A stretch of DNA of 64,000 bases, from NCBI GenBank assembly GCA_026394495.1, contig JAPKYE010000072.1:1-64000 (forward strand), in the 5' to 3' direction. The position numbers and the translations under genes were made by a program. Shown here piece by piece: positions 7,751 through 33,794 of the stretch. Below the pieces are notes generated by a model, which had not been told where the DNA came from, searched no databases, and was given only the letters and a program-made list of their open reading frames with translations. Source of the DNA: Methanobacteriota archaeon (GTDB lineage Archaea; Thermoplasmatota; E2; DHVEG-1). How positions within the stretch are numbered: position 1 is the stretch's first letter; each line of letters begins with the position of its first letter.

Positions 7751-7767
7751 AATGCTCCCATCGGGAT
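7751..7767. repeat. att copy distal to tRNA-Glu
   Basis: AATGCTCCCATCGGGAT identical to 12238-12254. Confidence 0.88.
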
Positions 7768-7961: not shown

Positions 7962-8044
7962 GGTATCCGTATGTTGCCCCGAGGAGGGTTTTTCCCTCAC
8001 TTGTGAACGGGAAAAAGCCCGAGGAGGGGCAACAGGAGGATACC
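7962..8044 (+). other. multi-segment stem-loop upstream of rep (candidate double-strand origin or leader RNA)
   Basis: GGTATCC/GGATACC, GTTGCCCC/GGGGCAAC, symmetric GAGGA/GAGGA internal loop, GGGTTTTTCCC/GGGAAAAAgCCC, apical TCAC-TT-GTGA. Confidence 0.85.
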
Positions 8045-8081
8045 GAGGGGAACTGCCTTGTCTTATGGGAGGGCTGTTTGT

Positions 8082-9437
8082 ATGAACACCCTCCATCAGG
8101 TGAAAAGCAAATTTACTTACTCAGATTATGTTAAAATTTTAAAAGATGATGAAGAAAGTGGAAAAAAACAAATTGACTTAGGTTTAAAATTCGCTGAAGA
8201 ATACAACAATAAAAAAACTATTACTTTTAATTGTTTAGATTGCGAATGTTATATTACACCTCTATCAATAGCGAAGTTTGAGCGGTCTCAATTTTCTTAC
8301 TTTAAACTGTTTGATTACTATAATTCTCTTAAAACATGTCCACAGTGTCACAGTACAAATATTATTACTCATATTTACGAAAGCAAAATACCAAAAAAAG
8401 AAGACTATGATTTGCTTTTTAATCCTAAACAAATCTATGCTGTAGACATTGGCGATGATGTGGGTTTTCAATCTGCATGTGAACATTACGAATCTACGAT
8501 GAATGACCCTTATTTTATTGCATTACGTAACAAAAAAACAGGGCAAATAATAGGTAAACAAATTTACAAACGAGGTACATTGCAATACTATAAGCAAACA
8601 GTAAAACCAAAAACAAATATCATCAAAGACATAGGGGATATTTTACAACTAACTGGCGATTGTATTGCTGTTTTCTTTACTCTTACTTGTGACACTAAAA
8701 AATACGGTTCGCAAACAGGGGCATGGTTAGAAGCCCCTAAAGATGTTAATCGAGTGCTTACTTGGGCGAGAAAAGGTGCAACAGGTAAAAGAAAACGAGT
8801 TTATCATTCGCCAAATAAACCACAAAGAGAATTTAAAAATCAAAGACCAAAAATTGAGGCTTATTATATGATTTATGAGAATACGGTCTCCCTTTATCCT
8901 ACATTTCATGTGTTAATGATTTTCAATGTAAAAGATTTAAGTCCGTATCCTTCCGCTAGAAAATATCAACTACGAGCATTTAATGACGAAATGACCTGTG
9001 TTTATCGTCAGGGATTCACAAATATAACGGAACTGCGTTCTAAAAAATTCGCTGATATTTCTTACGCTGTGAATTATACAACTAAATATGTTTCAAAGGC
9101 ATTAAACGAAAACCATCCTAAATATGACCGTAACAAGAGCATTGGATGGATGACTACTTTAAAATGTACAGGTAAACGACTTTTTTCAATGTCAAGAAAA
9201 TGGAAAACTTGGCATGACCAACTTTATAAAAATAGCTTGGACGAACATATATATGCTAATTCAAACGATAATTGCAATAATTGGGAATTATACTGTGTGA
9301 GAATTGGGGGATTTAAAAATTTAAGCGATTTTATCGAGGATTGTATTGCTTTTAGACCACCACCTGGTAAAATAATTTTTTTATATGACAGTTCAAAACG
9401 AAAATGGGTAGAGGATTCTAAGGAGGTATACTCTTAA
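8082..9437 (+). CDS. HUH-superfamily rolling-circle replication initiator (Rep)
   Basis: Motif 1 FFTLTCD, motif 2-like PTFHVLMIF, motif 3 YAVNYTTKYVSK; N-terminal CxxC pairs; ORF track start at 8058 but ATG at 8082 (MNTLHQ) follows GGGAGG. Confidence 0.82.
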   Translation: MNTLHQVKSKFTYSDYVKILKDDEESGKKQIDLGLKFAEEYNNKKTITFNCLDCECYITPLSIAKFERSQFSYFKLFDYYNSLKTCPQCHSTNIITHIYESKIPKKEDYDLLFNPKQIYAVDIGDDVGFQSACEHYESTMNDPYFIALRNKKTGQIIGKQIYKRGTLQYYKQTVKPKTNIIKDIGDILQLTGDCIAVFFTLTCDTKKYGSQTGAWLEAPKDVNRVLTWARKGATGKRKRVYHSPNKPQREFKNQRPKIEAYYMIYENTVSLYPTFHVLMIFNVKDLSPYPSARKYQLRAFNDEMTCVYRQGFTNITELRSKKFADISYAVNYTTKYVSKALNENHPKYDRNKSIGWMTTLKCTGKRLFSMSRKWKTWHDQLYKNSLDEHIYANSNDNCNNWELYCVRIGGFKNLSDFIEDCIAFRPPPGKIIFLYDSSKRKWVEDSKEVYS

Positions 9438-9438
9438 A

Positions 9439-9573
9439 ATGTCCCATAATAAAGATGTGTATAAAATTGAATGTAGTTGCAATGGCGTTATTGATGCTAC
9501 CTTTATATTTACCAGAAGCGATTATTATGACGTTTGGTATTTAGCAAGTAATTACGCAAAGGATAAAAAATGA
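9439..9573 (+). CDS. small protein MSHNKDVYKIECSCNGVIDATFIFTRSDYYDVWYLASNYAKDKK
   Basis: Short ORF with upstream AGGAGG, overlapping the next start. Confidence 0.6.
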   Translation: MSHNKDVYKIECSCNGVIDATFIFTRSDYYDVWYLASNYAKDKK

Positions 9574-10595
9574 CTCAAAGAACTTTTGATGTTATGACAC
9601 GAAATAATTATTTAAAAGGTTGTTTTCCTCGTGTTTCTTATGCTAAAGATGCTAATATGATTAGAATAAAAGTATGTGAAAATACTCAGGTTCGTAGCAC
9701 TCGTTTATTTGTGTATGATGAGGGTTGTAATGAATGGACTCATGGTTTTTATTCTTATGACGGGAGGGGAATCATATTTTATTCACCTCGTACCCATCGT
9801 TATGAGTTCTCTGGTCCTATCGTGAATGTTTGGAGTAGGGAACGTGTGAATAAGTGTGGTGGGATGGTCTCCTCTGAGCCTGTCTTTAATGGGCTTCGAT
9901 GGGGTAGGAATCTTAAAAAAGGTATTGAAAACGAAAATAAAATATGTGATAACCTAAATACTGCTAATGTTGATAATTTAAAAATTCACCATTTAGAAAA
10001 TAGCGGTCATTTAAGTGGAGGGAGTGATATTGTCGTTTCTTTGAACCCTATTGAACCTGAAGAAAGTTCTTATGATACTGTTTTGCGCGGTGTGTGTGCT
10101 ATTGAGGTTTTAGGTATCAAAAAACGCGGTTTAACTGAGTCTACTCTGTCGTTTATGCTTCATAGATTTATAAATTTTCAGAGATGGCGAAGTGACTTAA
10201 TAAAAAATGATGTACTCCCTGTGATTGCATGGAATTATGAGGGGAAATCTTGGTTTGTTATAATGACAGATAGCGCGTTATACGATGGTTTTTACATAGG
10301 TGAGGGCGAATTAAAACATCAACAAACAAATTATCCTCTGGTTAGAAAGATACTGGAGTATAAATTAAACGTAACACAGTTATTCTATTGTATCAGATGT
10401 CATTTAAAAACTGTCAGCATAATACACACAATCGAAAAAAATAAGCCTGTATCCTATGGTCAAGGTAGCGAATATTTCTATTCTAAGGGTTACCCTTTGA
10501 AACCTGTCTATGATTATGACGTTGTTATAGATAAGATACGTAGCTATTTGTTTGAGACCTGCGGGGCTGATGAATCCTCTTATTGCAAGGATTAG
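9570..10595 (+). CDS. hypothetical protein, possible PD-(D/E)XK-like nuclease fold
   Basis: GSDIVVS ... CAIEVLGIKKRG ... VLPVIAWNYEGKSWFVI spacing resembles D-ExxxxK nuclease cores; weak. Confidence 0.4.
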   Translation: MTQRTFDVMTRNNYLKGCFPRVSYAKDANMIRIKVCENTQVRSTRLFVYDEGCNEWTHGFYSYDGRGIIFYSPRTHRYEFSGPIVNVWSRERVNKCGGMVSSEPVFNGLRWGRNLKKGIENENKICDNLNTANVDNLKIHHLENSGHLSGGSDIVVSLNPIEPEESSYDTVLRGVCAIEVLGIKKRGLTESTLSFMLHRFINFQRWRSDLIKNDVLPVIAWNYEGKSWFVIMTDSALYDGFYIGEGELKHQQTNYPLVRKILEYKLNVTQLFYCIRCHLKTVSIIHTIEKNKPVSYGQGSEYFYSKGYPLKPVYDYDVVIDKIRSYLFETCGADESSYCKD

Positions 10596-10672
10596 TTAGG
10601 GGAGGTAGGGGTATGGTTTCATATATCTAACGATATTACAATATATTTCCCTCCTGTTGGTAACACGAATGT

Positions 10673-10910: not shown

Positions 10911-12290
10911 GTGATTTCATCAGTCACCCTTACGGGTGATGCGATGACGGATAATGAAACAACCCAATCAGATAAATTTTATTCAAACAATAATTCTTTT
11001 AAAGTTGTTCATGCTTCTGGTATTACTTCTCAAAATCAAGAAGTGGGAGTGTGTAACCAAGAATGCGAACCTATTTTAGACAAAATAAGCCAGAATCATA
11101 TCGAACATTTAAGCCCTATTGTTGGGAAGGAAATGGTGAAACTGGATTATGACTTAAAAAAAACTTTAGATGTTGAAATATTTAGAAACCCCTATGTACT
11201 TGAACCAAAGGACTATGAGACGTTACAAGATTTTTTCACGGCACTCGAACATTGGTGGATTTTTCGATATAGAAAAAACCCCAGTACCATTAAAGACAGA
11301 ATCCGGTACGCAAAAAATATGTCGAAACATCCAGTTTATCCTATCGACTGGCTGAAGCTTAACCCGAATCAAGTAATAGCTTATCTGGAACACAGAGAAT
11401 ATCAAGATTACGGCAATACTAGAGGAAAACATCAAATACGCAATGACTGGAAAACAATAAAAACTATCGCGAAAGCATTTGGAATCGATGCTGAACTTTG
11501 GGGATATATCCCACCATGCCCACCAAAAGCCAAGGTACGAAAAATACCATCACCTGACGAAGTACATGCTATTATCCATCATAAATACTGTAAGGACAAA
11601 TACACTAAAACTTTGTATCAGTATATACTCATGCATGGTTTTTCTATTGGATGGAGACCTGCTGAGCTTGTCATCCAGAAAGTAAGCGATGTTCACTATG
11701 AAGACGGGTACTTAATCATCACTGAGACGAAGAAAGGCGACCAGATGCGACAGATTTTCCCTGAGAAACGTATTTTATCAGGGGAACGATGTAAAAGCTT
11801 CAAAAATTATATTGAGGACTGGCGACCAAAGGTTTTGAATCAATATAGCGGTGACTTTCTCTATTTACAGGCTAACGGGAGACCGTTTACGGTGAATTAT
11901 CTGAGAAAACTACTTACCCCTGAAGTTAAAAAGGTTTGGAGTAGTTTTTCTCTCTATACGATGCGTCATTGGTGTGCAATAGCTCGATTAATCCAAGGCT
12001 TCATTGATAACGGTACATGGGATAAGACTGACGTTCAAGATTGGCTAGGACATGAACGAGTAAGTACAACTGACGACTATACTAAGTATGCTAAAAAGTA
12101 CTATTTGATTGCCAAGTTTGATTGGATAAAATCCATCCTCAAATTTCACACAAAAAAATGTGAGAGGGGAAAATGGAAAAAATTCGATAAATTGGCAAAA
12201 AAGGGCTTTATTAAACCAGTTAACAGGAGAAAAAAGGAATGCTCCCATCGGGATTCGAACCCGAGTCTTCGCCTCGAAAGGGCGAAATGA
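10911..12290 (+). CDS. tyrosine recombinase / integrase overlapping tRNA-Glu
   Basis: SIGWRPAEL, TMRHW, DWLGHERVSTTDDYTKY motifs; C-terminus reads into the 3' part of tRNA-Glu; real start possibly MTDNETTQ near 10944. Confidence 0.88.
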   Translation: MISSVTLTGDAMTDNETTQSDKFYSNNNSFKVVHASGITSQNQEVGVCNQECEPILDKISQNHIEHLSPIVGKEMVKLDYDLKKTLDVEIFRNPYVLEPKDYETLQDFFTALEHWWIFRYRKNPSTIKDRIRYAKNMSKHPVYPIDWLKLNPNQVIAYLEHREYQDYGNTRGKHQIRNDWKTIKTIAKAFGIDAELWGYIPPCPPKAKVRKIPSPDEVHAIIHHKYCKDKYTKTLYQYILMHGFSIGWRPAELVIQKVSDVHYEDGYLIITETKKGDQMRQIFPEKRILSGERCKSFKNYIEDWRPKVLNQYSGDFLYLQANGRPFTVNYLRKLLTPEVKKVWSSFSLYTMRHWCAIARLIQGFIDNGTWDKTDVQDWLGHERVSTTDDYTKYAKKYYLIAKFDWIKSILKFHTKKCERGKWKKFDKLAKKGFIKPVNRRKKECSHRDSNPSLRLERAK

Positions 12291-19997: not shown

Positions 19998-20016
19998 TAT
20001 AATTTATGGATGCATA
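19998..20016. repeat. att direct repeat (integrase side)
   Basis: TATAATTTATGGATGCATA identical to 33776-33794. Confidence 0.85.
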
Positions 20017-20094
20017 CGTAGGTGCATTATGTAACAGAAATTACATCGTAGAACGCTTTATGTAATAGTTTGAGAATCAATGTGTTTAGTTTGC

Positions 20095-21348
20095 TTATGT
20101 CGTTGGTGTTATCAGTGGTTTTCTTTGTTCTTTTACTTGTTCTTCTAATTTCTCTATCTTTTTAAGTAGATAGAGTGATATATCAGAGGGTTGTTGTTGC
20201 ATTGATTGTGTTTTTGGTTCTTGTAACTGTGTCTGTAGATTCTTGATAGTGGTTTGTAGTTGGGTGATTTGTTCTTGTTGCTGTTTAAGTTGTTCTTGTT
20301 CTTGTGTAGGTTTTGATGGTTCTTGAGGTTTAGGAGTCTCTGGTGTTTTGTTGTTTAGAGTTAGTGCTTTATTGATCTTTGCTCGAATGTTTGTGTCCAT
20401 TTTTGGCTGTATGTAGACTTCCTCTAAGGTCTTTGTATTCCTGTGTCCTGTCTGCAACGCTATCTCTTTGAGTGACATTCCCGAAGCATCTAATCTGGTT
20501 GCACCTGAATGTCGCCAGAGTTGAGGGAATACTGAACCTCTTGGGAGTCCTAATTGTCTCTCGTATTTTGTCATAATGTAGTTAACACTGTTTGGTTGGA
20601 ATCTATACCCCAAGTCATTAAGAAATAACGAGTCCTTATGGTATAGTTTTCTTCCCCAATTATCGGTGTATTCTCCTTTTGACCTTGCATTCTTGCATCC
20701 TTCTGCTGGTTGTGGTCGTATTCTGCGATACTCGTTAAGAGAGTCGATAGTGTCCTGAAATAGAGTTACTGTAAACTCCCCGTTCTCTTCACCTTTTGGG
20801 TTTATGATTTTACACTCGTAGTATTTTGTTCCATTGTCTTCTACTTTGCCATTCCAGTCTATGTCTTCATCGTTGAGATGTACTATTGATGATTTTCTTT
20901 GTGGGATAGCGAAGAATAGTTTCATCATTGAGTGGTGACATAGATTGTTTTTAGATGCGAGAAATAGTCGTTCTATTATGTCGTCTGTTAGGACTTCTCT
21001 TTTTACTTTCTTGTGTGGTGGTGGTGTCAATAATGCTCTGTTTTCGTTTTTGTCGATTTCGTCAATGATGTTGTTAATTTTGTTGGCTTTGAGATACCTT
21101 AGAAATACTCTGAATGCATTACATCTAATGCACATAGCGTTAGGTTTTGTTTCTCCTTGTTTTACTTGTTCATCCCAATATGATCTCCATTTCTCAATGT
21201 CCTTAAGCGTTATATTCTCTGGTTCTTTATTGAGATGCTTTAGTATTAGTCCTACGTTGCAAGTATAACCTACCAATGTTGCTCTGCTTTTGCCTCTGCT
21301 TTTCAGATAGTTTTCAAATGACTTCAAGATGTGGTTTTCTTTGGTCAT
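20095..21348 (-). CDS. tyrosine recombinase / integrase with C-terminal coiled coil
   Basis: N-terminal SAM-like LKSFENYLKSRGKSRATLVGY, catalytic FAIPQRKSSIVHL, LWRHSGATR, TGHRNTKTLEEVYI. Confidence 0.9.
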   Translation of the reverse strand: MTKENHILKSFENYLKSRGKSRATLVGYTCNVGLILKHLNKEPENITLKDIEKWRSYWDEQVKQGETKPNAMCIRCNAFRVFLRYLKANKINNIIDEIDKNENRALLTPPPHKKVKREVLTDDIIERLFLASKNNLCHHSMMKLFFAIPQRKSSIVHLNDEDIDWNGKVEDNGTKYYECKIINPKGEENGEFTVTLFQDTIDSLNEYRRIRPQPAEGCKNARSKGEYTDNWGRKLYHKDSLFLNDLGYRFQPNSVNYIMTKYERQLGLPRGSVFPQLWRHSGATRLDASGMSLKEIALQTGHRNTKTLEEVYIQPKMDTNIRAKINKALTLNNKTPETPKPQEPSKPTQEQEQLKQQQEQITQLQTTIKNLQTQLQEPKTQSMQQQPSDISLYLLKKIEKLEEQVKEQRKPLITPTT

Positions 21349-21352
21349 TCAA

Positions 21353-21676
21353 TCACCTTTCGTTTGCTTTAGACAAAGATGTTTCACTATTATGTTGTCC
21401 ATCTTCGCCAATAGTTAAATCACTCTGGGTATTAAGATACTTTACCGAGCAATTTATAAATAAGGATTTGTCAAACCTCTTCAAAGGTCTTAGATAATAG
21501 TCTTTTCTTTGTTTATTTTCTATATCTCGTTCTTTAATCGCTTCTTGACAAATTGATTTTAATAAATTATCTATAAATTCTTGAATATACTCTACAGATT
21601 CACTACTAACTTCTCCGCCAACATAATCTTTTAAAACTCTCTTTAATCTTTTATATGTTAAAGCATTCTCTCTCAT
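21353..21676 (-). CDS. hypothetical protein of element
   Basis: 107-aa ORF overlapping the integrase start. Confidence 0.55.
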   Translation of the reverse strand: MRENALTYKRLKRVLKDYVGGEVSSESVEYIQEFIDNLLKSICQEAIKERDIENKQRKDYYLRPLKRFDKSLFINCSVKYLNTQSDLTIGEDGQHNSETSLSKANER

Positions 21677-21838
21677 CGTTCATTTCCATATTTTGAATTA
21701 CAACATCTAAAAACACAAACAAGGTCTACAGGAGAGACACATTAAAATCTTGTTTAGGTAGGGATAATCATCCAACCTAAACCATATCTGCTATATATCA
21801 CTGATTTTACTAAATATTCTCATTAGTTCTATATGGTT

Positions 21839-22045
21839 TTAGACTACTGTATGCTTCTGCATAATCTTCTTAATATCAGAGAGCATTTCCATATCTTTTT
21901 GGAATGATTCCTTACTGATTTCTATAGATTGTATTCTGTATCCGCATTTGTCACATATTCTGGTTCTGGTAAGGTATCCTGTTCTTTTAGATAAATATGT
22001 TACTTTTGCCATTAGCCTACCATCACTACACTTACTACACTTCAT
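21839..22045 (-). CDS. small zinc-ribbon protein
   Basis: MKCSKCSDGRLMAKV...RICDKCGYRIQSIE, two CxxC pairs. Confidence 0.7.
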   Translation of the reverse strand: MKCSKCSDGRLMAKVTYLSKRTGYLTRTRICDKCGYRIQSIEISKESFQKDMEMLSDIKKIMQKHTVV

Positions 22046-22692
22046 AGGGTATACCTCACAAGTGAATCTTCAGATTCTTGTTTCTTATCTACACCTTTAA
22101 CCACATAACATCCTTTGTCCTTGTTTTTGTTGTAGATCACTTCATTTAGATTATTCTTTGATTTTACTTCATCTGTGAAAATTCTATATTCTTTGTTGTT
22201 GGTATCCCAGATATAATAAACATTTATTCTTCTATCATTTCCAAGTATTCCCATCTTTCCAATGTGTACTAAATCTTTTACATCTGGTTCTATATAGTCT
22301 GTTCTACGGGTTTCTAATCTCTTGTTCATTTGTTCTATTGATGAAAAACACTTTTCTGCTGATTCCTTACTTGTTTTCCTACACCAAAATGTCTTATTAG
22401 GTGAATATATCCTGTCACATTCGGGTATTGCCTCATCATTAATTGTATATGGTTCTGGGAATCTTAAGATATCAGATACCTTATTTCTATATTGTTTTAA
22501 GATTGTGTGAGGATTAAATGGTTTATGTTTAGTTATCTTTTTGATTCCGTTTCTGAAGCAATCATTTACTACGTATTCTCCATGTTGATACTGCCTATGG
22601 TATTGAAGTTCACTATCGGATTCAAATTTAGCTTGACATCTTTTACAGGTTAGTATTTTATTTTCTACCTTTTTCATTTCTTTGTTTACCAA
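22042..22692 (-). CDS. C2H2 zinc-finger protein of element
   Basis: ILTCKRCQAKFESDSELQYHRQYQHG is a C2H2 finger. Confidence 0.7.
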   Translation of the reverse strand: MVNKEMKKVENKILTCKRCQAKFESDSELQYHRQYQHGEYVVNDCFRNGIKKITKHKPFNPHTILKQYRNKVSDILRFPEPYTINDEAIPECDRIYSPNKTFWCRKTSKESAEKCFSSIEQMNKRLETRRTDYIEPDVKDLVHIGKMGILGNDRRINVYYIWDTNNKEYRIFTDEVKSKNNLNEVIYNKNKDKGCYVVKGVDKKQESEDSLVRYTL

Positions 22693-22718
22693 TAACTACA
22701 GAGCAAAATACAGATATT

Positions 22719-22850
22719 CTAAAATCTCCTTCTTTCATCACGTATCTTTCTAAGACATCCCCTACAATAAACATCTCTTCCTTCTGTTGGTACAAAAGGT
22801 ACAGTAGTCTCTACACCACACTTTGAACAGATTACTTTATTTTCTTCCAT
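22719..22850 (-). CDS. 43-aa zinc-ribbon protein MEENKVICSKCGVETTVPFVPTEGRDVYCRGCLRKIRDERRRF
   Basis: Complete ORF below the track cutoff, CxxC...CxxC. Confidence 0.65.
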   Translation of the reverse strand: MEENKVICSKCGVETTVPFVPTEGRDVYCRGCLRKIRDERRRF

Positions 22851-23209
22851 TAAATTTCTTTACTCTTTCTGATAATTATTACACATCTAAAAACAATATC
22901 TTATTTACTCTTACTAATAGTGTTTAATTCTTTTGTTAAAACGTAATCTAATAGTTCATCAACAGATATTCCTAATTTCTCTGCTGTTCTTTCAAGAACC
23001 TCTGCGTTAGGTTTTGAGAATCCTTTTAGTTCTCTTCGCATGATTTCTCTGCTCGATATTCACACATTGAACTATCGAATGCTTTCCGTATGATATTCTT
23101 CAATAATTCCCGTTCTTGCTCTGGGTTCATATCTTACTATTCCTCTAGGTTATATTGACATTAAAACATTTTCTTTTTGGTTACTTAATTCATAGTGGGG
23201 TTTATTGTG

Positions 23210-23881
23210 TTATTTTTCCCAATCCTCAGAATACAGGTCTTTTCGTTTCCTTTTCCTCCCTCCTGAGAAAGTGAACATATCCATACTTTCTGGGTCGGTA
23301 ATCCATCCTTCTTGATCTGGTAGTTCTTCGACTATTGGTGCTGGTGTATTGACTCTTATACCTTGGATTTTTACATCATCTTCTTTTAGATGTTGTTTTG
23401 ATTGGATTTTGAGGAGTTTATCTTGGTGTTGATAGAGTTTTTGGAGTTCATTCTTTTCTTTTTGGGTCATTGGTCTACATTGTTTTCCTTGGCATTCTTC
23501 AAATTTATAACAATATTTATCGCAATCTTTAGCACATCGTTTTATACGTTCAAGGTCTGAGATTTGTTTCTCTGTATCTTGTACACTTAGTTTGTGTATT
23601 GTATCTCTGTCTTCATCCTTTTCACCTATGATGTATCTTTCATTGAGTTCCTTAAGGAGTTGTATTGCTGTTTTTATTGTTCTTTGATTTGGTTCTATCT
23701 TAAGGTCTGTGGGATAGGTCTTTATCATCTTTTTATAATATTTTATCGTTCTGTTGATGCTAGTTCTGGAATCGTCAATATGTGCTTTGATTATATCTTG
23801 TACAAGTTTGTGGTGACACTTATCTAATATTTCAGATACGATTTTATCATATCGCTGTCTGGTTACTTTTACTTCTTTCAT
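23210..23881 (-). CDS. hypothetical helical Cys-rich protein
   Basis: 223-aa ORF with CAKDCDKYCYKFEECQGKQC cluster. Confidence 0.6.
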   Translation of the reverse strand: MKEVKVTRQRYDKIVSEILDKCHHKLVQDIIKAHIDDSRTSINRTIKYYKKMIKTYPTDLKIEPNQRTIKTAIQLLKELNERYIIGEKDEDRDTIHKLSVQDTEKQISDLERIKRCAKDCDKYCYKFEECQGKQCRPMTQKEKNELQKLYQHQDKLLKIQSKQHLKEDDVKIQGIRVNTPAPIVEELPDQEGWITDPESMDMFTFSGGRKRKRKDLYSEDWEK

Positions 23882-24727
23882 ATCAAATCCTATCTAATCT
23901 TTTTACAGATAACAAACATTAAGCACTTGCCTACAAATTAATCTACTTAACAAGGTTTATGTATTCGTTCTTTCAGATACTTCTTTTGTAACGAATAGAC
24001 TCAAATCTTCTATTTTAGTGCCTAAAAACCTCCAGGAGGGAAACAGGCTTAAGGGTTCACATGCTAATCCTTACATGGTCTTCCAACAGATATAACGGAT
24101 GAGTATGCTTAGCATTTACAGTGTCTATTTTAGTACCCCCTAATATAGTGAAGGGGTAGCTACCATGGCATTACATTATATGATTTTTAGTGAATTTTCT
24201 TAGTCCTTATGGCATTTTGGAGTCCACTTTTGACTAAGGGTGTCTATATTTTCCATACCTGTTGGGTATCCAATAGTTAAAATGTGGTACAATCACCTAT
24301 GTTTTTAGAATTATTAAGTTCTTTCAATGCTGTGAACATAAGATACTCTTTCCAAGTTCTACATTTTAATTTCCTTTTTGCTTTCCTTAATATTCTATGT
24401 TCTTGGTCTGTCAACGGGATATGAAAAGTTTTCATTTAATTCTCCTAAATCTTCTACATAAAAACACAGTAACTTACTTTTTTATACTCTCTCATTAATA
24501 TATAGAGTTCCATATAACCATGTCTTTTTAAGATTTCTACTCTGTTGAGGTACAGGTAAGTTTATTAGGGAGAAATACAGAAACCTCATTCCCTCCTGTT
24601 GATTTTGAGAATTTGAGGTATCTCCTTCGAGAGACCGTGCTACAAGTGGATTTTCCCTAATATATAAAGATATGTGGACTAAATTGCTAATGGTTATCAT
24701 ACCTAAAATACATTGAAAATAATGATA

Positions 24728-24949
24728 TCATTTACTTGGGAATCTTATTGTAAGATATTGTAGAAGAGTAACTGGATATCGTTTCTTAAATTCTGTGTAG
24801 TCGAGAATTAATGCCATTAAACCAAAGAATAGACTCCCTGTGATAAATCGGAAGTCAAGAGAACATAGACTCCAATTAAAGAGAAATAGGCTTGTGATGG
24901 CTAAAACCAATTTTAAGATATATCTATAGTTTAGTTTCATCTGTACCAT
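24728..24949 (-). CDS. small membrane protein
   Basis: Two hydrophobic segments ILKLVLAITSLFLFNWSLCSL and FITGSLFFGLMALIL. Confidence 0.45.
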   Translation of the reverse strand: MVQMKLNYRYILKLVLAITSLFLFNWSLCSLDFRFITGSLFFGLMALILDYTEFKKRYPVTLLQYLTIRFPSK

Positions 24950-24970
24950 GAAAGAAAAGGAGATAGAAAT

Positions 24971-25162
24971 CTATCTCTTGTTTAGGGTATAGTTGCCTAC
25001 GAGGTTTCCGTTAGAATCTAAAAGGATTCCTTGCTTTGTGTTTCCTTGTTCTAGTTTTAAGATTGCATCTTTTAGAATGTGTATAACCTCTTCTTGTGGA
25101 TTCTCATCAAAGGCTTGGTTATCAGTTCGGATGGTGAGTTTAAACATCTTTATTTTCTCCAT
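24971..25162 (-). CDS. hypothetical protein
   Basis: 63-aa ORF in the minus-strand gene array. Confidence 0.45.
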   Translation of the reverse strand: MEKIKMFKLTIRTDNQAFDENPQEEVIHILKDAILKLEQGNTKQGILLDSNGNLVGNYTLNKR

Positions 25163-25437
25163 CGTGGGGTTAATGTGTAGATTTGTTTTCTTCCGATTAA
25201 CTGTAGCGGTGAGTATTGGTTTTTACCGTCAAGGATTGGTACTCGTAAGGTGACGTTTATCATTTCTTTTCTGAGTCTATTCTCTCGTTTACAGATGATA
25301 GGCTTTTGATAGATTTCTTCGAGTATCTGTAAGAAGGATACTGTCTCATATGGTCTGTTTCGTATCTGTATGGTCGGGGGAAGTTGTCCGCATCCTAAAA
25401 ATAAACAGGTATCCTGTAGGGATATTGTTGATTCCAT
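25150..25437 (-). CDS. hypothetical protein
   Basis: 95-aa ORF overlapping the downstream start. Confidence 0.5.
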   Translation of the reverse strand: MESTISLQDTCLFLGCGQLPPTIQIRNRPYETVSFLQILEEIYQKPIICKRENRLRKEMINVTLRVPILDGKNQYSPLQLIGRKQIYTLTPRWRK

Positions 25438-25897
25438 CGGATCACGCCCTACTCGTTTATGATTTCATCTATTCTTTGGAGTTGTTCTGTGCTGTAGTCA
25501 AAAAGAATAAGAGAGTTGATGATTCTCTCTTTATAAGTTAGATTGTCTTCTGTGGTCATTGTATCCCTTATTCCTCTGTGTAACCATCAAACCATAAGAC
25601 GTTTCCAGATTCATCTTTCTTATGGGTTGTTTCAAGGGAACAGTGGTATTGTGCTTGTTTTAGTGTAAGACCGCTATCTATGGTTCTTTGTCGTTTGTTT
25701 TCATCTCGATAGAAGCGAATAATCTTATAACTCATTATTTCGCCTCCTCTCTTAAGATGAATTCTGTAAATCTTTCTCTGTCAAATCTTGGGTTGTCTTC
25801 TTCAAAGAACTTGATAAAATCATCTATAAGTGGTTTGTGTGCTTGGTTCTTTGCTAAAATGAATCCTATAGATTTATAGTGTTGACGAGAGAACATC

Positions 25898-26179
25898 TTA
25901 AGACACCCCCAAGGCTCTAGTTAATCTTTGGTGGATGTCGTAGAATTCTTCTAAACTTAAGGGGTCATCTTTTAGAGTTACTGTAGAGGGGAATCGTTGC
26001 ATATCTTCTACAGTTTCGAATACACATCCTTTGTACTTTATGAGATGGCTCTCAATGATTCCTTCTATCTGAGAATAAGAGATAGTGGTCATTTTAGCAC
26101 CCTTCCCAACAGTAGAAATTAACTGATTTTGTAGGAAGGGCTCGGATGATATACCCTTCTTTTCTTTTGGTTTCTGCAA
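25898..26179 (-). CDS. hypothetical protein
   Basis: 93-aa ORF in array; internal start MTTISYSQIEG likely. Confidence 0.45.
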   Translation of the reverse strand: MQKPKEKKGISSEPFLQNQLISTVGKGAKMTTISYSQIEGIIESHLIKYKGCVFETVEDMQRFPSTVTLKDDPLSLEEFYDIHQRLTRALGVS

Positions 26180-26372
26180 ATGCTTTTGAGGTTGTAAAAT
26201 CTACAATCTCAAAGACTGTTAGTTCTTGGTGTTCTTGCCTCTGAGAAAGTTCTTTAAATCCCCTTTCGTTTCTTGGTTCGGGGATATGAAGAACCATCTC
26301 TTCTTTGCCGTTGATGTGGTTTTTCATATTCTCATTTCCTTTTGTTTTGTTGTATTCAGTAAAGCATACCAA
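26094..26372 (-). CDS. hypothetical protein, first gene of the minus-strand array leftward of the divergent promoter
   Basis: 92-aa ORF; TATA-like element upstream on minus strand. Confidence 0.5.
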   Translation of the reverse strand: MVCFTEYNKTKGNENMKNHINGKEEMVLHIPEPRNERGFKELSQRQEHQELTVFEIVDFTTSKAFAETKRKEGYIIRALPTKSVNFYCWEGC

Positions 26373-26443
26373 ATATATAAAGTTATTCAGTTGAGGATAA
26401 ATAAGGATACCAAGGTTATAAATGTGAACAGGGATTCATAAGT

Positions 26444-26584
26444 ATGGTACGAATTGGTGTAAGTATAGATAAGAAGGATTTAGAGAAGTTGCGGAAGATA
26501 TCAATAGATGAGAAGCGACCTCTTTCAAATCAAATAGTGTATATGCTGGAGTTCTATCTCAAGTTCAAGGATAAAGTAAAGTGA
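26444..26584 (+). CDS. ribbon-helix-helix (CopG-like) regulator MVRIGVSIDKKDLEKLRKISIDEKRPLSNQIVYMLEFYLKFKDKVK
   Basis: 46-aa ORF below the track cutoff; RHH pattern; divergent from 26094-26372; TATA-like GGTTATAAATG upstream. Confidence 0.65.
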   Translation: MVRIGVSIDKKDLEKLRKISIDEKRPLSNQIVYMLEFYLKFKDKVK

Positions 26585-27600
26585 TTGTTCTTTCCCCTTA
26601 CTATATCCCCTATCTCATTGTAAAGAAGAAAAAAGAAGAAAGAGTAAATCAAAGGAACTTTCTTTTCTTTTTCTTTATTATTTCTTTTTCTATTCTTTGA
26701 ATAAGATAATAATAGGAACTCTGTAGAGATAGGAACTCTGTTATCGGGGATAGATTCATTTGATTTATTGGGAACTTATTAGTAATAACTAAGGGGTCTG
26801 AAAGAACAGGTTAGGAGTAAGGAATAGGTAATAGGAACTTGTTATATGAAAGTGAGGATAAGGAGCTAACTATATACTATCCCTCAAATGAGCCTATTAA
26901 ACACACACATAAGGAGTAATCCCCTATCTATATGCTCTATTCTATAGATTCATTGAGATAATAAGGTTTTTACTGCTCTATCTTCTTAAAAAGATTTATT
27001 TAATTATTTAGTTCTTTCACCATGTCTTAAGGACTTATCAAGTATATCTTTTTCAAGGGAATAATAAGAGATATTCTCTCCTGTTGTTAGATTAAAATGC
27101 CTTGGAAGGTATAATTATGTGTCTAAGGGGTAGGGTTAGAGTATCTAATAGAGGTTTTAAGGATAGTTACTCCTGTTGAGGGTTGAGATGCCTCTCTCCT
27201 GTTGGCTCTATAAACTGAGAAACTGAGGTATTCTCTAAAACTATGGGGTTCTTGGGTTCACTAAATCACATAATCTTTAAGATTCTATTGGATTCTACAG
27301 AGGAATGATTCATAATAGAGTATTATGTTTCATTCTCCTGTTAGTATATAAAGACAATCTTAAAATCTAAACTAATATTTTTCTTTATTCTTAAGGATAC
27401 TACAAGGGATTAGTATTAATTAACAGAGGAGATATAGGTATCTATCAGGGGAGATAAGATATATCTACAGATAGGAACGGCATAAGGGGTAGTAAAATAC
27501 TATCCTCTTCTGTACATAGCTTAGTGTCTCATTATTACTATAACTTTTTGTATATTCCTTTATATACTAAACGTCAATAAATCTCTCTAATCCTTACCAT

Positions 27601-27615
27601 CGTATCACTGATACG
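27601..27615. repeat. perfect dyad CGTATCA-C-TGATACG
   Basis: Direct reading. Confidence 0.7.
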
Positions 27616-27680
27616 GCATATAGGGTAATATCCCCAACAGGAGTGGAGTATAATTATCTGTAACAGTGGTATATCATGTT

Positions 27681-28253
27681 TTAAGATGATATAGATGTTA
27701 CGGATTTCTTGGTTAAAGTAGACTTTCTCCTGTTGGATTCATTCTCTATCAACTTGGCTATACTCTTTCTACAGTCAGAGCATAACAGTGCTGAAAACTC
27801 TACTAAAAGTGTGTTAACATTCTTGTAATTTTTGTCTAAATCGCCAATAAGATTGTATATAGATTCTCTATCATCCAATAGACGTGATTTGATTCGACCA
27901 AGACGATTATTTAGCATCTTCTCTAAATCTGATCTAACACCTTTCGGCATATTGGTGTTAGCTAATATAGTCTGAATATTATCTATAATATCTTGGATAT
28001 CTTCTAATGTTTTAGATATATTTGATTTGTAGGTATGCTTAAAATCATCTATTCCAGAAGGTATATCTTTAGCCTTGGTGGATATATTGGCATAATCTAC
28101 TTTCTTAAAGAATCGACATAAATCCATCTTGTTAATATCTACTACATTATGTTTTGTTTTTAGTTCTTCTAACATCTTGGAATAACCAAGACACCTTAAC
28201 CTCATTTCTTTAATAACTTCTGAAAGACCCATTGATTCTATCTTATTGACCAT
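27681..28253 (-). CDS. coiled-coil protein of element
   Basis: 190-aa helical ORF. Confidence 0.55.
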   Translation of the reverse strand: MVNKIESMGLSEVIKEMRLRCLGYSKMLEELKTKHNVVDINKMDLCRFFKKVDYANISTKAKDIPSGIDDFKHTYKSNISKTLEDIQDIIDNIQTILANTNMPKGVRSDLEKMLNNRLGRIKSRLLDDRESIYNLIGDLDKNYKNVNTLLVEFSALLCSDCRKSIAKLIENESNRRKSTLTKKSVTSISS

Positions 28254-28551
28254 TCTTGATTACCTCATGTATTTTCTTGTCCAAAGGAGTGAATAGAAGG
28301 TTATCTTTTTCCTTCTGAATCTCATTACCTAATATCTTGGTTTGTTCTTTTAGATTCATTAGTGTTTCCTCAAGATGTGTTTTCTCTAATTCTTCCCTTG
28401 CTCGTTCCTCAGTAGCTAATCTATTCTGCTCTATAGCTAGTCTATTCTTTCTTAATTTGTTCTGGTTCCTTAAAAATTGTTCTACTACCATTTGATTCAT
28501 TCCCATCTCGTATAATTTTAACATCGACTGCTTTCCTATGCTTACCTCCAT
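28243..28551 (-). CDS. coiled-coil protein of element
   Basis: 102-aa ORF rich in E/K/L. Confidence 0.5.
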   Translation of the reverse strand: MEVSIGKQSMLKLYEMGMNQMVVEQFLRNQNKLRKNRLAIEQNRLATEERAREELEKTHLEETLMNLKEQTKILGNEIQKEKDNLLFTPLDKKIHEVIKNGQ

Positions 28552-28726
28552 AGTAAGATAATATACTAAAAGTCACATAGTCACCTATTCGAATCTCCTT
28601 TATAGGTGAGTAATCGGAGTCACTGGCGTGGAAAAACACTGTCTCATCATCTCCCCCATATTTTATTTCCCCTGATCTGCGAAATTTATCATATTCTGAA
28701 ACAATTCCTTTAAGAATTTCTACCAT
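28442..28726 (-). CDS. cold-shock-domain-like nucleic-acid-binding protein
   Basis: KGIVSEYDKFRRSGEIKYGGDDETVFFHASDSDYSPIKEIRIGDYVTFSI resembles CSD. Confidence 0.6.
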   Translation of the reverse strand: MVEILKGIVSEYDKFRRSGEIKYGGDDETVFFHASDSDYSPIKEIRIGDYVTFSILSYYGGKHRKAVDVKIIRDGNESNGSRTIFKEPEQIKKE

Positions 28727-28995
28727 TTATATCTCTTATTTATTATCTAAACATTTACATCTTCTTTCAGATGTCCTGACATTTTGGAGTAATACTCTAT
28801 TCTTTTAGAATCACTTAAAACTCCATTACTTGAAGGATATTCCTTACACTGGTCTATCGCTTCATCAACCCAATTATCTATCTTTGACATTATACTTTCT
28901 CCTTAGAATACTCATATTTTAACATCTCCTTATCTTGTTCTAAAGATGACAGTATCCTCCTGTAGTATTTTAGTTTCTTCAATCTAATAAATTCT

Positions 28996-29229
28996 TTATT
29001 CCTGTCCATTGATTTTCCTAACAAAGATTGCTCTATCTAAATCCTCAGATGATAGAGTAAATTCAACATATGTTCCTTTTTGTGGAATAAACTTACAATC
29101 CTCCCTTAAGAAGAATATATTTCTGTTATCTGGGTCTTCTAAAGAGTTAATAAAACCAGTATTAGACTCATAGTCAAACCATCTTATAATTCCTTGTGGC
29201 ATCCTAACCTCCTGTGTTTTAAGATTCAT
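28996..29229 (-). CDS. cold-shock-domain-like protein
   Basis: MPQGIIRWFDYESNTGFINSLEDPDNRNIFFLREDCKFIPQKGTYVEFTL; likely start at MPQG after AGGAGGTTAGG. Confidence 0.65.
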   Translation of the reverse strand: MNLKTQEVRMPQGIIRWFDYESNTGFINSLEDPDNRNIFFLREDCKFIPQKGTYVEFTLSSEDLDRAIFVRKINGQE

Positions 29230-29550
29230 TTTGTATAATTACATTTCATAACGAATGATTCGTTAAAAACTAAAATCTATAAACTTTCTTCAAAGATTCT
29301 GTGATCTCATAAGGAGAGAGTATTCGTTACATTTAACGGTATTCTTATTAATGGATAAACGGATGAATCTCCTATCTTAAGTTCCTCCTGTTGGGATTAA
29401 GTTGATATAAATTTCTTATGGAGGAAGTATTCTTTTATATTTTGGTTTAGAAAAGTATACTATACATAATAAGAGAATTATAATTATTGATGTGTGTACT
29501 GTTAAATGGTTGTGTCATATCTATAAGTACTCTATTTCTCTCCTGTTGAA

Positions 29551-30168
29551 TTATATTGGATAGTTGATAGAGTAAGGGGAAATATCTATCTCCTTTCTCT
29601 CTACGATTTTCTTTATTAATTCAGGAGTATAATGCTCTTTAAATTTAATTACTAAAACTTTATCATTCTTTAATTGCTCTTCAATATAAGAAATGTTCCT
29701 GTGATTAATCGCTATTACGTGTTGGTATCTATTGAGTCTATCCCAAGTATAAAATTTAGATACTAATCGTGTCTTATAGAAATAATTCATCTGATACCTT
29801 AGTTTCTTCCAATTTGCTACTTCTATTAGATACTTGTAGATATTGTTGTTACTGTCTGTTATTCTAAGGTAATAATCTATCCCTTTTTGACCTCTGTAAT
29901 AGTGCCTTAAAGTATAGGAGTTAGGGATTGATTTAAAACTCTGAATATATCCATATTTTCTTAAGGTTTTGTTAGTATTATAAGCAAAGATATATTCACC
30001 AAGTCTGCCCTTAACATTATTAGCATCTTTTCCCATATTAATTGTCTTAAGAATATGATGAATCATATCTGTGTTTAATCTCCAATTCATACTTTCATTC
30101 TGTAATATCTCTATAGGATTCGAGATATGGCTTTCGCTAACCGATATAATTTCTTTAAAAGTAGACAT
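29551..30168 (-). CDS. possible PD-(D/E)XK-like nuclease, variant active site
   Basis: NVKGRLGEYIFAY ... GIDYYLRITD ... YLIEVANWKK. Confidence 0.45.
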   Translation of the reverse strand: MSTFKEIISVSESHISNPIEILQNESMNWRLNTDMIHHILKTINMGKDANNVKGRLGEYIFAYNTNKTLRKYGYIQSFKSIPNSYTLRHYYRGQKGIDYYLRITDSNNNIYKYLIEVANWKKLRYQMNYFYKTRLVSKFYTWDRLNRYQHVIAINHRNISYIEEQLKNDKVLVIKFKEHYTPELIKKIVERKEIDISPYSINYPI

Positions 30169-30348
30169 CTATTCATCTGAAATTATTTTAAGACATTTAG
30201 AATCTATTTTGTGGTAGATAATACGAGTATCTTCCAATGATGAAATAAACTCTTTAATTTTCTTAATACCTTCAACATCTGTCTTAACGATTACTCCAAA
30301 ATTGAAGTAACTCTTCATAAAATTATTCAGATCAATTTCGTTATTCAT
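30169..30348 (-). CDS. 59-aa hypothetical protein MNNEIDLNNFMKSYFNFGVIVKTDVEGIKKIKEFISSLEDTRIIYHK...
   Basis: Complete ORF adjacent to 30168 start; below track cutoff. Confidence 0.5.
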   Translation of the reverse strand: MNNEIDLNNFMKSYFNFGVIVKTDVEGIKKIKEFISSLEDTRIIYHKIDSKCLKIISDE

Positions 30349-30748
30349 TTTCTTATCCTATCCAATTATAATTACAAATCTACAAACAAAAGGTTAAGGA
30401 GAGGATGAAAACACCCTCTTCTTTCAAACCCATCAATAGTATAGCTTTTTTACCTCAAAATGATAGACTAATGTGTATTTTCTTCACTTTTTGATTTATG
30501 GCTATATTATGACCCCTAAAAGTCTATCTCGGAGAGAGTATCTATCGTCTATCGCATCTACGAGTTGTTGATCTTGGAGTTCTAATATTGACTTTATCCG
30601 CCTTTCTACTCTTGTTTGTTGTTTGCGGAAGTGGATATTTCTCATAAGGATTTTCTGTTGGTTGTTCATCTACATTCTCTTCACTCGGAAGAGGATAATT
30701 ACTAATTGGTTTCTTAATTGCCATATTAATTCTTTCCTTTTATAAATT

Positions 30749-31408
30749 TTATCCATAACATAATAACATATTGTTAATTGTATTACCATAGAGTCTTTCT
30801 ATAACTGGTTCTAATTCTTGTCTATGTTTATCTACTGTTAATTTTTTCAAATATTTACAGTGAAACCAAGTAGGTATCGCTATTACATAAATATCTGATA
30901 TATGATGCCAACTTATTGATATACCTTTAGGATAAGGATTTGGCATTACTTTAACAAATCCTAATCCTTTCTTTCTTGCATTATTCTGTGCTACAATTTC
31001 TTTAATATAAGTTATATGTTCTTCTCTATATTTTAGACCATATTCTCTAAGTTGTTTTTTATGTTCTTGGCAGTATTTCTTACCAAGTTCTCTTATCTGT
31101 TTTTTATGTTCTAATCTATATTTTTTATCTTGTATTCTTCTTTGTTCTATATGTTCTAAATAATATTTTCTATGATTATCTCTTCTTTGTTCTATATGTT
31201 CAAGTCTATACTGTTTGTGATAGTTTTTGAAGATTTCTTTATGAGATTCGTAGTACTTTTTCCTAATTATTTTTAGATGTTTTCTGTGTTTTAAATAATA
31301 TTCTTTTATCTGTTCCTTATGTTCTAGATTATATTTCTTATGATAATCTTTTATCTGTTCTTTGTGTTCTAAATTATATTTTTTATTGTACTCTTTTTTA
31401 TTAAACAA
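30749..31408 (-). CDS. tandem-repeat protein with C-terminal HNH-like domain
   Basis: Repeated (K)YxLEHKEQIKxY units followed by ISWHHISDIYVIAIPTWFH. Confidence 0.6.
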   Translation of the reverse strand: MFNKKEYNKKYNLEHKEQIKDYHKKYNLEHKEQIKEYYLKHRKHLKIIRKKYYESHKEIFKNYHKQYRLEHIEQRRDNHRKYYLEHIEQRRIQDKKYRLEHKKQIRELGKKYCQEHKKQLREYGLKYREEHITYIKEIVAQNNARKKGLGFVKVMPNPYPKGISISWHHISDIYVIAIPTWFHCKYLKKLTVDKHRQELEPVIERLYGNTINNMLLCYG

Positions 31409-31519
31409 TTCTTTCCTTCATAAGATATTTAGTGCCACAACGATAACAAACAAACTCACTATTGTATATCTCACCATCATTCGCTCCGCATTTCCTACAG
31501 ATTATGAAAACCACCTCTA

Positions 31520-31981
31520 TTAATACTCCTTTAAAATATAACCTAATTTTGTCTTTACTATACCATCATTAGGTACATCTTTACAGTCTTTGCATCCATC
31601 TTTAGATTTGTTTAGAATGAATATCTCTTCATTATTCGAGTTTGAATCCTTAGAACATAGATAATTAAGCAGTATCAAATCTTTATGAGTTTCATCTGAC
31701 AGAATACCATCTTTTGCTTTAACAATGACCTTATCTAAAACAGTACTAATATTAGTCCTATTGAGACTCAAAGCGTTATTCATAGTATCTAAAAACATCT
31801 CAGGGTTATCTCCTTCCTTAAATGAAGAGATAGTATCAGCGTGATTCTTTCCGATAGAGCAATTTAATCCTTCTCTTGAACTAATTTTCTCTAATAGTTT
31901 GAGTTTATTTGCTTCCCTGTTTTTGATATCTATAGCAAGTTGATTTAAACTTGTAGTATCCACCATTATATTCCACTCCAT
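31520..31981 (-). CDS. hypothetical protein of element
   Basis: 153-aa ORF; likely start MVDTTSLNQ. Confidence 0.5.
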   Translation of the reverse strand: MEWNIMVDTTSLNQLAIDIKNREANKLKLLEKISSREGLNCSIGKNHADTISSFKEGDNPEMFLDTMNNALSLNRTNISTVLDKVIVKAKDGILSDETHKDLILLNYLCSKDSNSNNEEIFILNKSKDGCKDCKDVPNDGIVKTKLGYILKEY

Positions 31982-32496
31982 TCTTCTTTTTTCTTCTGGT
32001 GTACATTTTGTTCTTGAAAGGTGTATCCTGAAATTCCACCATCTCTAATAACTTCTTTACTTTTAGATTTCATTGATTCATCTACTCGTTCTCGAATTTC
32101 TTGAGAGGGTAGATGATTTGTGTCAACTGGTCGGGTATATAATGTTCCTGTTCCAGTCTTTTCTTGTACAATGAAATCCTGAACTTTCTTCTTATCTACA
32201 TCTATGTTTAGTGTCATATTTTTTATCTCATTATTTCTTAACATTTTAACAGTATTCTTGAACTCCTTAGAGTTCTTTATTTCATTCAAGAGTGCATCCT
32301 CTAAAGATATGGATGTTTTAGTTACTGGAATAGCATCTTTAGATACTTGCATCTGTTTTAGACATCGTACATTCTCTAATCTTGAAGAATAGTCATTTAG
32401 TTTTGAATTATAGGAATCTCTAAGATTAGTTAACTGGTTTTGTAATAACTTCACTTGATTTTGAAGGTAATTCACTTTCTCGTTTAAATCGTTCAT
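31966..32496 (-). CDS. coiled-coil protein of element
   Basis: MNDLNEKVNYLQNQVKLLQNQLTNLRDSYNSKLNDYSSRLENV. Confidence 0.55.
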   Translation of the reverse strand: MNDLNEKVNYLQNQVKLLQNQLTNLRDSYNSKLNDYSSRLENVRCLKQMQVSKDAIPVTKTSISLEDALLNEIKNSKEFKNTVKMLRNNEIKNMTLNIDVDKKKVQDFIVQEKTGTGTLYTRPVDTNHLPSQEIRERVDESMKSKSKEVIRDGGISGYTFQEQNVHQKKKEEWSGI

Positions 32497-32668
32497 TTAT
32501 TTCCTTTAGTATAATACTACATTTCTTACAGATTGATTGAGTTTTTCCATCAATATGGAATATATTAATTCCATCCCTTTGATTTATATTTTCAAGTTCT
32601 TCTTCATCTTTTAATTCTATATTGTTACTATCTTGGCACATCCTACATTCTAATTGAATAAATCTCAT
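32426..32668 (-). CDS. zinc-ribbon-like protein
   Basis: LECRMCQD...SICKKCSI, two CxxC. Confidence 0.55.
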   Translation of the reverse strand: MRFIQLECRMCQDSNNIELKDEEELENINQRDGINIFHIDGKTQSICKKCSIILKEINERFKRESELPSKSSEVITKPVN

Positions 32669-32835
32669 ATGCTATCCTATAATTTTATTATACATTTTAG
32701 ACAGGTGTGGAGGCATATGTTTTATAAACCCTGCCTCCAAATGGGTTATCTCCTCATCTTACCTAAATGACGTAGGATGGCTCCTAGGCACCCTGTTCCA
32801 CAAATAAGATGAAGATTGAGTATGTCTGTGGAACT

Positions 32836-33138
32836 CTAAATTATTGATGTTAGTAATTCATCGAGATATTGGACTTTGAAATTCTCTAAAGATTTGAGTT
32901 GTGATAAGAATTCATCTTCTGAGATTCTTTGTTTTAGGATTTGTGATCTCCATGTATTAACCTGTATTAATTTAATCAAGAAATCTCTACATTCATCATT
33001 TTCAAATCCTTGTATTTTGAGATGTTCAAAGGTGTCTTTAACATCAGTATCGCTCTTTAGCAATTCATCCAGATATGGCTCAACATCTCCTAACTTTTTC
33101 GATAACTCTTTAGTAATTTGATTCCAATCCATTTTCAT
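32836..33138 (-). CDS. helical hypothetical protein
   Basis: 100-aa ORF. Confidence 0.5.
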   Translation of the reverse strand: MKMDWNQITKELSKKLGDVEPYLDELLKSDTDVKDTFEHLKIQGFENDECRDFLIKLIQVNTWRSQILKQRISEDEFLSQLKSLENFKVQYLDELLTSII

Positions 33139-33310
33139 CTCCTATAGTGGTAAAGGAAGGTGATTTTGCACCAAGGCACCTTCAACCTTGCTTTTCAGAT
33201 TGATAGTTCCAGATATATTATATTAGGTGTAGGCATTGAACACAATGACCCTAATAATCACCACATAAATCTATCAATGTGCAAGAACTCCAAAGAAGTG
33301 GTGACACGAA

Positions 33311-33418
33311 TTAACTCCCATATTTATTGATATAGATATTTGCCTGACAATCAGGACATATATCTACAGGAGAATCATCTGACAAGTTCTTCATCCCACA
33401 GATTTTACATCTCTTCAT
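33311..33418 (-). CDS. 35-aa zinc-ribbon mini-protein MKRCKICGMKNLSDDSPVDICPDCQANIYINKYGS
   Basis: Complete short ORF with two CxxC. Confidence 0.5.
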   Translation of the reverse strand: MKRCKICGMKNLSDDSPVDICPDCQANIYINKYGS

Positions 33419-33775
33419 ATCAATTCTAACAATCTACAATATCTATAATAATACAACATCTATAAGTTTAAGAATATGAGAGGATGTAGATACCGTTTAA
33501 AATCATATATTTCTATATGCCCATCTGGGAATCTACATCTATTAGTTTTAGATGGATATGGTATGAACTCAAGAGATGGCGAATCTCTTGTTCCTTGTGA
33601 ATGATGCAAGGAATCGAAATATGGGGTAAGATGCATTAGTATCCTAACCCCCCTTTGGATATCAAAGGAATCGGAAATTAAAGAAAGTTAGGGGATAATC
33701 CCCTGTAGAGATGTGTCTATCTGAAAGGCAATTACATAAAGCAAATAACACCATAAACTTCTATATCTGCATTAT

Positions 33776-33794
33776 TATAATTTATGGATGCATA
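33776..33794. repeat. att direct repeat (distal end)
   Basis: TATAATTTATGGATGCATA identical to 19998-20016. Confidence 0.85.

Follow-up and report, generated by a model that had tools for sequence, protein, structure and literature searches.

A nine-nucleotide word too frequent for chance in an integrated archaeal element and spread between the genes of its host family: a putative host-factor recognition site

Why does one nine-nucleotide word recur within a short part of an integrated element, mostly outside its genes? The stretch of DNA from a Thermoplasmatota archaeon analysed here (64,000 nucleotides in full; hereafter the window) harbours a 13.8-kb integrated element (19998-33794). A 19-bp attachment-like direct repeat, TATAATTTATGGATGCATA, marks its left end (19998-20016, forward strand) and is matched exactly at its right end (33776-33794, forward strand), and a minus-strand gene for a tyrosine recombinase/integrase stands at the element start (20095-21348; PF00589, E 8.8e-10). 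The window holds ten exact copies of the word, read as CTCCTGTTG or, on the other strand, as CAACAGGAG; dinucleotide shuffles gave 0.28 on average and never ten. Eight of them belong to the element, where they span 24593-29548; the other two are in a neighbouring RC plasmid (8030 and 10651). Every exact copy listed in a preliminary description of this DNA was recovered: CTCCTGTTG starts on the forward strand at 24593, 27078, 27170, 27196, 27727, 29385, 29540 and 10651, and is inverted at 27635 and 8030. The one-base variant at 27335, CTCCTGTTA on the forward strand, was found as well.

The element copies lie mainly between genes. Six of the eight are in called noncoding DNA, and a seventh (24593-24601, minus strand in the sense of CAACAGGAG) overlaps only a doubtful 72-aa ORF. 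The exception is the copy at 27727-27735 (minus), which falls within the 3'-terminal codons of ORF 27681-28253. At higher coordinates, one copy is noncoding (29385-29393, minus) and another sits 2 nt beyond the stop of ORF 29551-30168 (29540-29548, minus). Seven copies point in the sense of the element genes (p=0.07) and one is opposed. The word is mostly noncoding with a single inverted copy, as had been claimed.

Chance can hardly account for this accumulation. Markov models of order 1-4 fitted to the element predict 0.07-0.43 copies, in agreement with the earlier estimate of far fewer than one; observing at least eight at an expectation of 0.44 has a probability of 2e-8, or ~0.003 after correction for all 9-mers, and the word ranks first by z among all 9-mers of the element. 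One-mismatch variants are near background (7 vs 4.0 expected), and therefore it is the exact word that is enriched. The word contains AGGAG, and AGGAGAAAA is frequent between genes in its own right, which could hint at base composition or at a by-product of Shine-Dalgarno sites. However, the count is far above expectation at every Markov order, no element gene starts just after a copy, gene starts downstream of chromosomal copies are not enriched, and the CAAC part mismatches the relatives' 16S tail, CACCTCCTAMGA, in any Shine-Dalgarno/anti-Shine-Dalgarno pairing. An origin by chance, composition or ribosome-binding sites is thus very improbable.

The word is not confined to the element. The absence of copies from the surrounding chromosome, as first described, holds within the window but not for the genome: the host assembly (2.22 Mb, 141 contigs) contains 44 copies, 34 of them outside the window, whereas the reversed word occurs 7 times. 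Of these 34, about half are intergenic. The sequence TTTCTCCTGTTG occurs in 45 of the 45 family genomes searched (the host and 44 others), with ~303 copies in total, whereas the reversed control reaches 20, and the exact word is enriched lineage-wide in noncoding host DNA. The closest named records, MAGs of Euryarchaeota/Candidatus Thermoplasmatota, share 61-67% identity over a KH-domain protein. At relatives' loci that were not picked for the word, CTCCT followed by GTTG appears six times in intergenic DNA, where ~0.5 would be expected if 4-mers were evenly distributed, and once in coding DNA. Markov scaling of order 3/4 from the sample predicts ~26 copies genome-wide, and hence the chromosomal excess sits in intergenic DNA, for which ~16 copies are estimated against ~3 expected; these figures are approximate because the sample is enriched for word-bearing contigs. 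Equal density in chromosomal intergenic DNA, which the preliminary description had named as the outcome speaking against it, was not found, since the noncoding DNA of the element, with 7 copies (6 in called noncoding DNA) per ~6.1 kb, is 15- to 20-fold denser than chromosomal intergenic DNA, with ~16 per ~250 kb (Poisson ~2e-7).

Its excess over chance in the element, together with its spread at lower density through intergenic DNA of the host and related genomes, suggests that the word is probably a site recognised by a host factor. The fuller reading, in which CAACAGGAG is a host-factor recognition word of this family that was reused in the noncoding control or replication DNA of two elements, we would put at a probability of about 0.4. 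Other readings have to be weighed against the surroundings of the chromosomal copies.

These surroundings were compared in an unselected set drawn from genomes G000, G004 and G006 together with integrase loci. Its sites divide into 48 intergenic and 46 coding ones, although intergenic DNA makes up ~12% of the sampled host. Half of the sites show AAAA within 8 nt after CAACAGGAG, compared with 9% of controls (p=1.6e-13). No significant association with gene starts, gene 3' ends or T5 runs emerged in this set; the largest trend was towards the 3' end of an antisense gene lying downstream (25% vs 16%, p=0.07). Orientation relative to genes is mixed at chromosomal copies. TATA-like boxes follow CTCCTGTTG at some relatives' sites, yet there was no excess near gene starts, and a promoter role was rejected. 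Structure gave no signal either: a conserved fold or an RNA hairpin beside the word was not seen at chromosomal copies (mean z ~0), Rfam finds only tRNAs within the window, and the word matches none of the stable RNAs compared (tRNAs, 16S 3' regions and one RNase P RNA; the assembly yielded no 23S).

Sites selected for TTTCTCCTGTTG tell a somewhat different story about RNA ends. There, oligo-T runs peak 10-14 nt past the word. T-loops of tRNAs, including fragmentary ones, precede it by 10-50 nt in the same sense in 12 cases, compared with 4 antisense sites. In three genera, the word or a version with one mismatch stands in the 3' flank of tRNA-Glu; the tRNA-Glu of the window is among these. 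Sense CAACAGGAG-AAAA near oligo-T might accordingly mark where transcripts end or where the trailers of tRNAs and other RNAs are processed and, in the element, the ends of minus-strand transcripts; the seven of eight copies in gene sense and the copy just past the stop codon at 29540 would fit. The tRNA flanks and this element orientation keep the reading alive as a possible, if doubtful, one. The gene 3' ends and T-runs lose significance in the unselected set, though, both word orientations are seen beside tRNAs, the element copies lack T-runs, their orientation bias reaches only p=0.07, and several of them lie in a gene-free 1.1-kb region. The processing or 3'-end role suggested beforehand is thus supported in part only: tRNA 3' flanks of the selected set have the word, whereas the unselected set gives no significant link to gene 3' ends and the fold is not conserved. 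Some copies adjoin T-runs behind tRNAs as archaeal oligo-T terminators would, whereas the T-run association is non-significant in the unselected set; such terminators are T-tracts and are not known to include a conserved 9-mer. Fragments resembling the 3' part of tRNA-Leu, GTTCAAATCCC...CCCCTGCA, were also noticed near the word at five loci (L277, L300, L304, L313 and L088) and are perhaps old attachment sites.

Chromosomal flanks form recurring families, which raises a further alternative: the chromosomal copies could be relics of dispersed short-repeat families having the word, and the element could have picked up the same repeat ends. One family, GCTGGGTGTAGGCCGTAAGCCTCTTTG-CAACAGGAG-AAAAAC, recurs in G000, G031, G032 and G033, another, AACAACAATTTGTTAAAT...-CAACAGGAG, in G004, and no single gene neighbourhood, conserved neighbour gene or transposase was seen at the chromosomal copies. 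Several short recurring families carrying the word are reminiscent of dispersed intergenic repeats of the MITE/REP type, but here the common part is one short word, and neither terminal inverted repeats nor a transposase link was seen. Because these unrelated families differ on both sides and have only ~9-25 nt in common, namely the word and ~15 bases after it, the word resembles a common signal rather than one repeat. The element copies, moreover, have no flank similarity to any family: they share the 9-mer only, without the chromosomal A-run and without T-runs. We consider an origin from repeat relics rather unlikely. The 27-nt unit GCTGGGTGTAGGCCGTAAGCCTCTTTG is itself conserved immediately before CAACAGGAG in several genera (L006, L048, L089, L239 and L296), has no Rfam match and is possibly a small RNA or a repeat.

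How the copies are arranged within the element bears on replication. Its largest noncoding region (26585-27680; 1.1 kb) contains four exact copies, at 27078-27086, 27170-27178 and 27196-27204 (all minus) and, inverted, at 27635-27643 (plus), together with the one-mismatch copy TAACAGGAG (27335-27343, minus), which is followed by a hairpin (z -3.2); the copy at 27727 is placed slightly within the neighbouring ORF. The two opposed copies at 27635 and 27727 occupy the left and right arms of a long inverted-repeat hairpin (27632-27738) and close it. Folded with its flanks, this hairpin reaches an MFE of -42.7 kcal/mol (z -4.8), the lowest energy among the element's 15 best-z windows. The detrended GC-skew maximum (27499) also falls in this region, with a skew range that is modestly significant (p=0.0125), so that cluster, hairpin and skew maximum coincide. 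By convention, the maximum of the cumulative skew indicates the terminus and not the origin when the leading strand is G-rich, and therefore 27499 marks the region as possibly replication-relevant only.

Plasmid-origin arrays of iterons or initiator sites likewise gather short exact repeats, along with an inverted repeat, in noncoding control DNA. The copies could be the element's own replication iterons, bound by an initiator that the element encodes, as their grouping within and next to the largest noncoding region, the inverted pair closing the hairpin and the skew maximum would allow. Unlike iteron arrays, the starts at 27078, 27170, 27196, 27335, 27635 and 27727 are spaced irregularly (92, 26, 139, 300 and 92) in mixed orientation rather than as regular, helically phased direct repeats, no initiator was recognised and no Rep-like domain was found among the element proteins scanned, and the word also occurs in the unrelated RC plasmid and across the host chromosome. 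Of the origin-iteron role proposed earlier, the cluster, hairpin and skew maximum stand, and the spacing and the missing Rep do not agree with it; it appears improbable.

The RC plasmid (7751-12254) is integrated at tRNA-Glu. Its 17-bp att repeat, AATGCTCCCATCGGGAT, occurs at 7751 and 12238, and the plasmid end adjoining the tRNA-Glu and att repeat carries a one-mismatch word with an A-run, TAACAGGAGAAAAAA. Both copies announced for this plasmid were confirmed. The inverted one (8030-8038, plus) lies within its most stable hairpin (~7962-8045; DNA z -5.9), upstream of ORF 8058-9437, a putative rep gene that is weakly rep-like (PF23343, E 0.025) and for which no relatives were found. The other (10651-10659, minus) lies between ORF 9570-10595 and integrase ORF 10911-12290. 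The hairpin beside the putative rep gene and the long hairpin of the element are both similar to the archaeal rolling-circle origin hairpins described for elements such as SNJ2 with its Rep-Arvir (PMC13107129); that paper reports no hairpin that is consistently conserved outside Halobacteria.

Among the four roles put forward in the preliminary description, the host-factor site is the best supported, because intergenic host DNA contains the word throughout the lineage and two unrelated elements share it. The word would most likely be bound by a host-encoded, sequence-specific factor at intergenic sites throughout the lineage. Its binding form is probably duplex DNA rather than RNA, since chromosomal orientation is mixed, no conserved fold was found and the link to gene ends is lost in the unselected set; the mean fold z of ~0 at chromosomal copies likewise favours a linear or duplex site. 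The 13.8-kb element and the RC plasmid, although unrelated, both carry the word in noncoding DNA, and the element cluster by the 1.1-kb noncoding region and long hairpin might provide multiple sites for the host factor, which could there control replication, copy number or transcription. Protein binding, the host origin of the factor and its control or replication role are what we infer from this distribution. Against the host-factor reading speak the lack of the A-run in element copies, the irregular spacing, a skew maximum that would rather mark a terminus, and the few copies at relatives' integrase loci. A more far-reaching version is distinctly unlikely: that this is an undescribed, family-wide exact 9-mer at which one host factor acts at tRNA 3' flanks and intergenic sites, and that mobile elements enlist or titrate the factor via arrays. 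A literature search for the word found nothing relevant.

If it is a binding site, the word could serve as a concrete bait for a host factor of an uncultured archaeal family, and it would mark where a mobile element that has no recognisable replication genes is likely to be controlled. The case also illustrates that an apparently element-specific repeat can be a host-wide signal common to two unrelated elements.

The word is not a general feature of mobile elements in the relatives of the host, whose integrase loci contain few copies. The searches brought up no close relative of the element; its integrase has distant relatives only, and their loci are not motif-rich overall. The element's unknown proteins that were tested have no IMG/VR relatives, and a scan of IMG/VR for paired copies returned, among the matches listed, copies solely in ORFs at 118 of 120 loci, presumably coding repeats.

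Several features of the surrounding genes were noted in passing. ORF 29551-30168 encodes a 205-aa protein without a Pfam or PHROG match; it has distant relatives in four family genomes, and its GIDYYLRITDSNNNIYKYLIEVANWK stretch resembles, by eye, a PD-(D/E)XK nuclease core. Two cold-shock-domain-like proteins are encoded by the element at 28442-28726 and 28996-29229 (PF00313, E 2.4e-6 and 0.012). ORF 30749-31408 contains five imperfect copies of a 107-nt repeat at 30977-31386, mostly in 45-nt steps, and encodes a repetitive charged protein. Elsewhere in the window, 51996-55853 encodes a 1285-aa secreted protein with peptidase C25, PKD, beta-helix, CARDB and dockerin-like domains.
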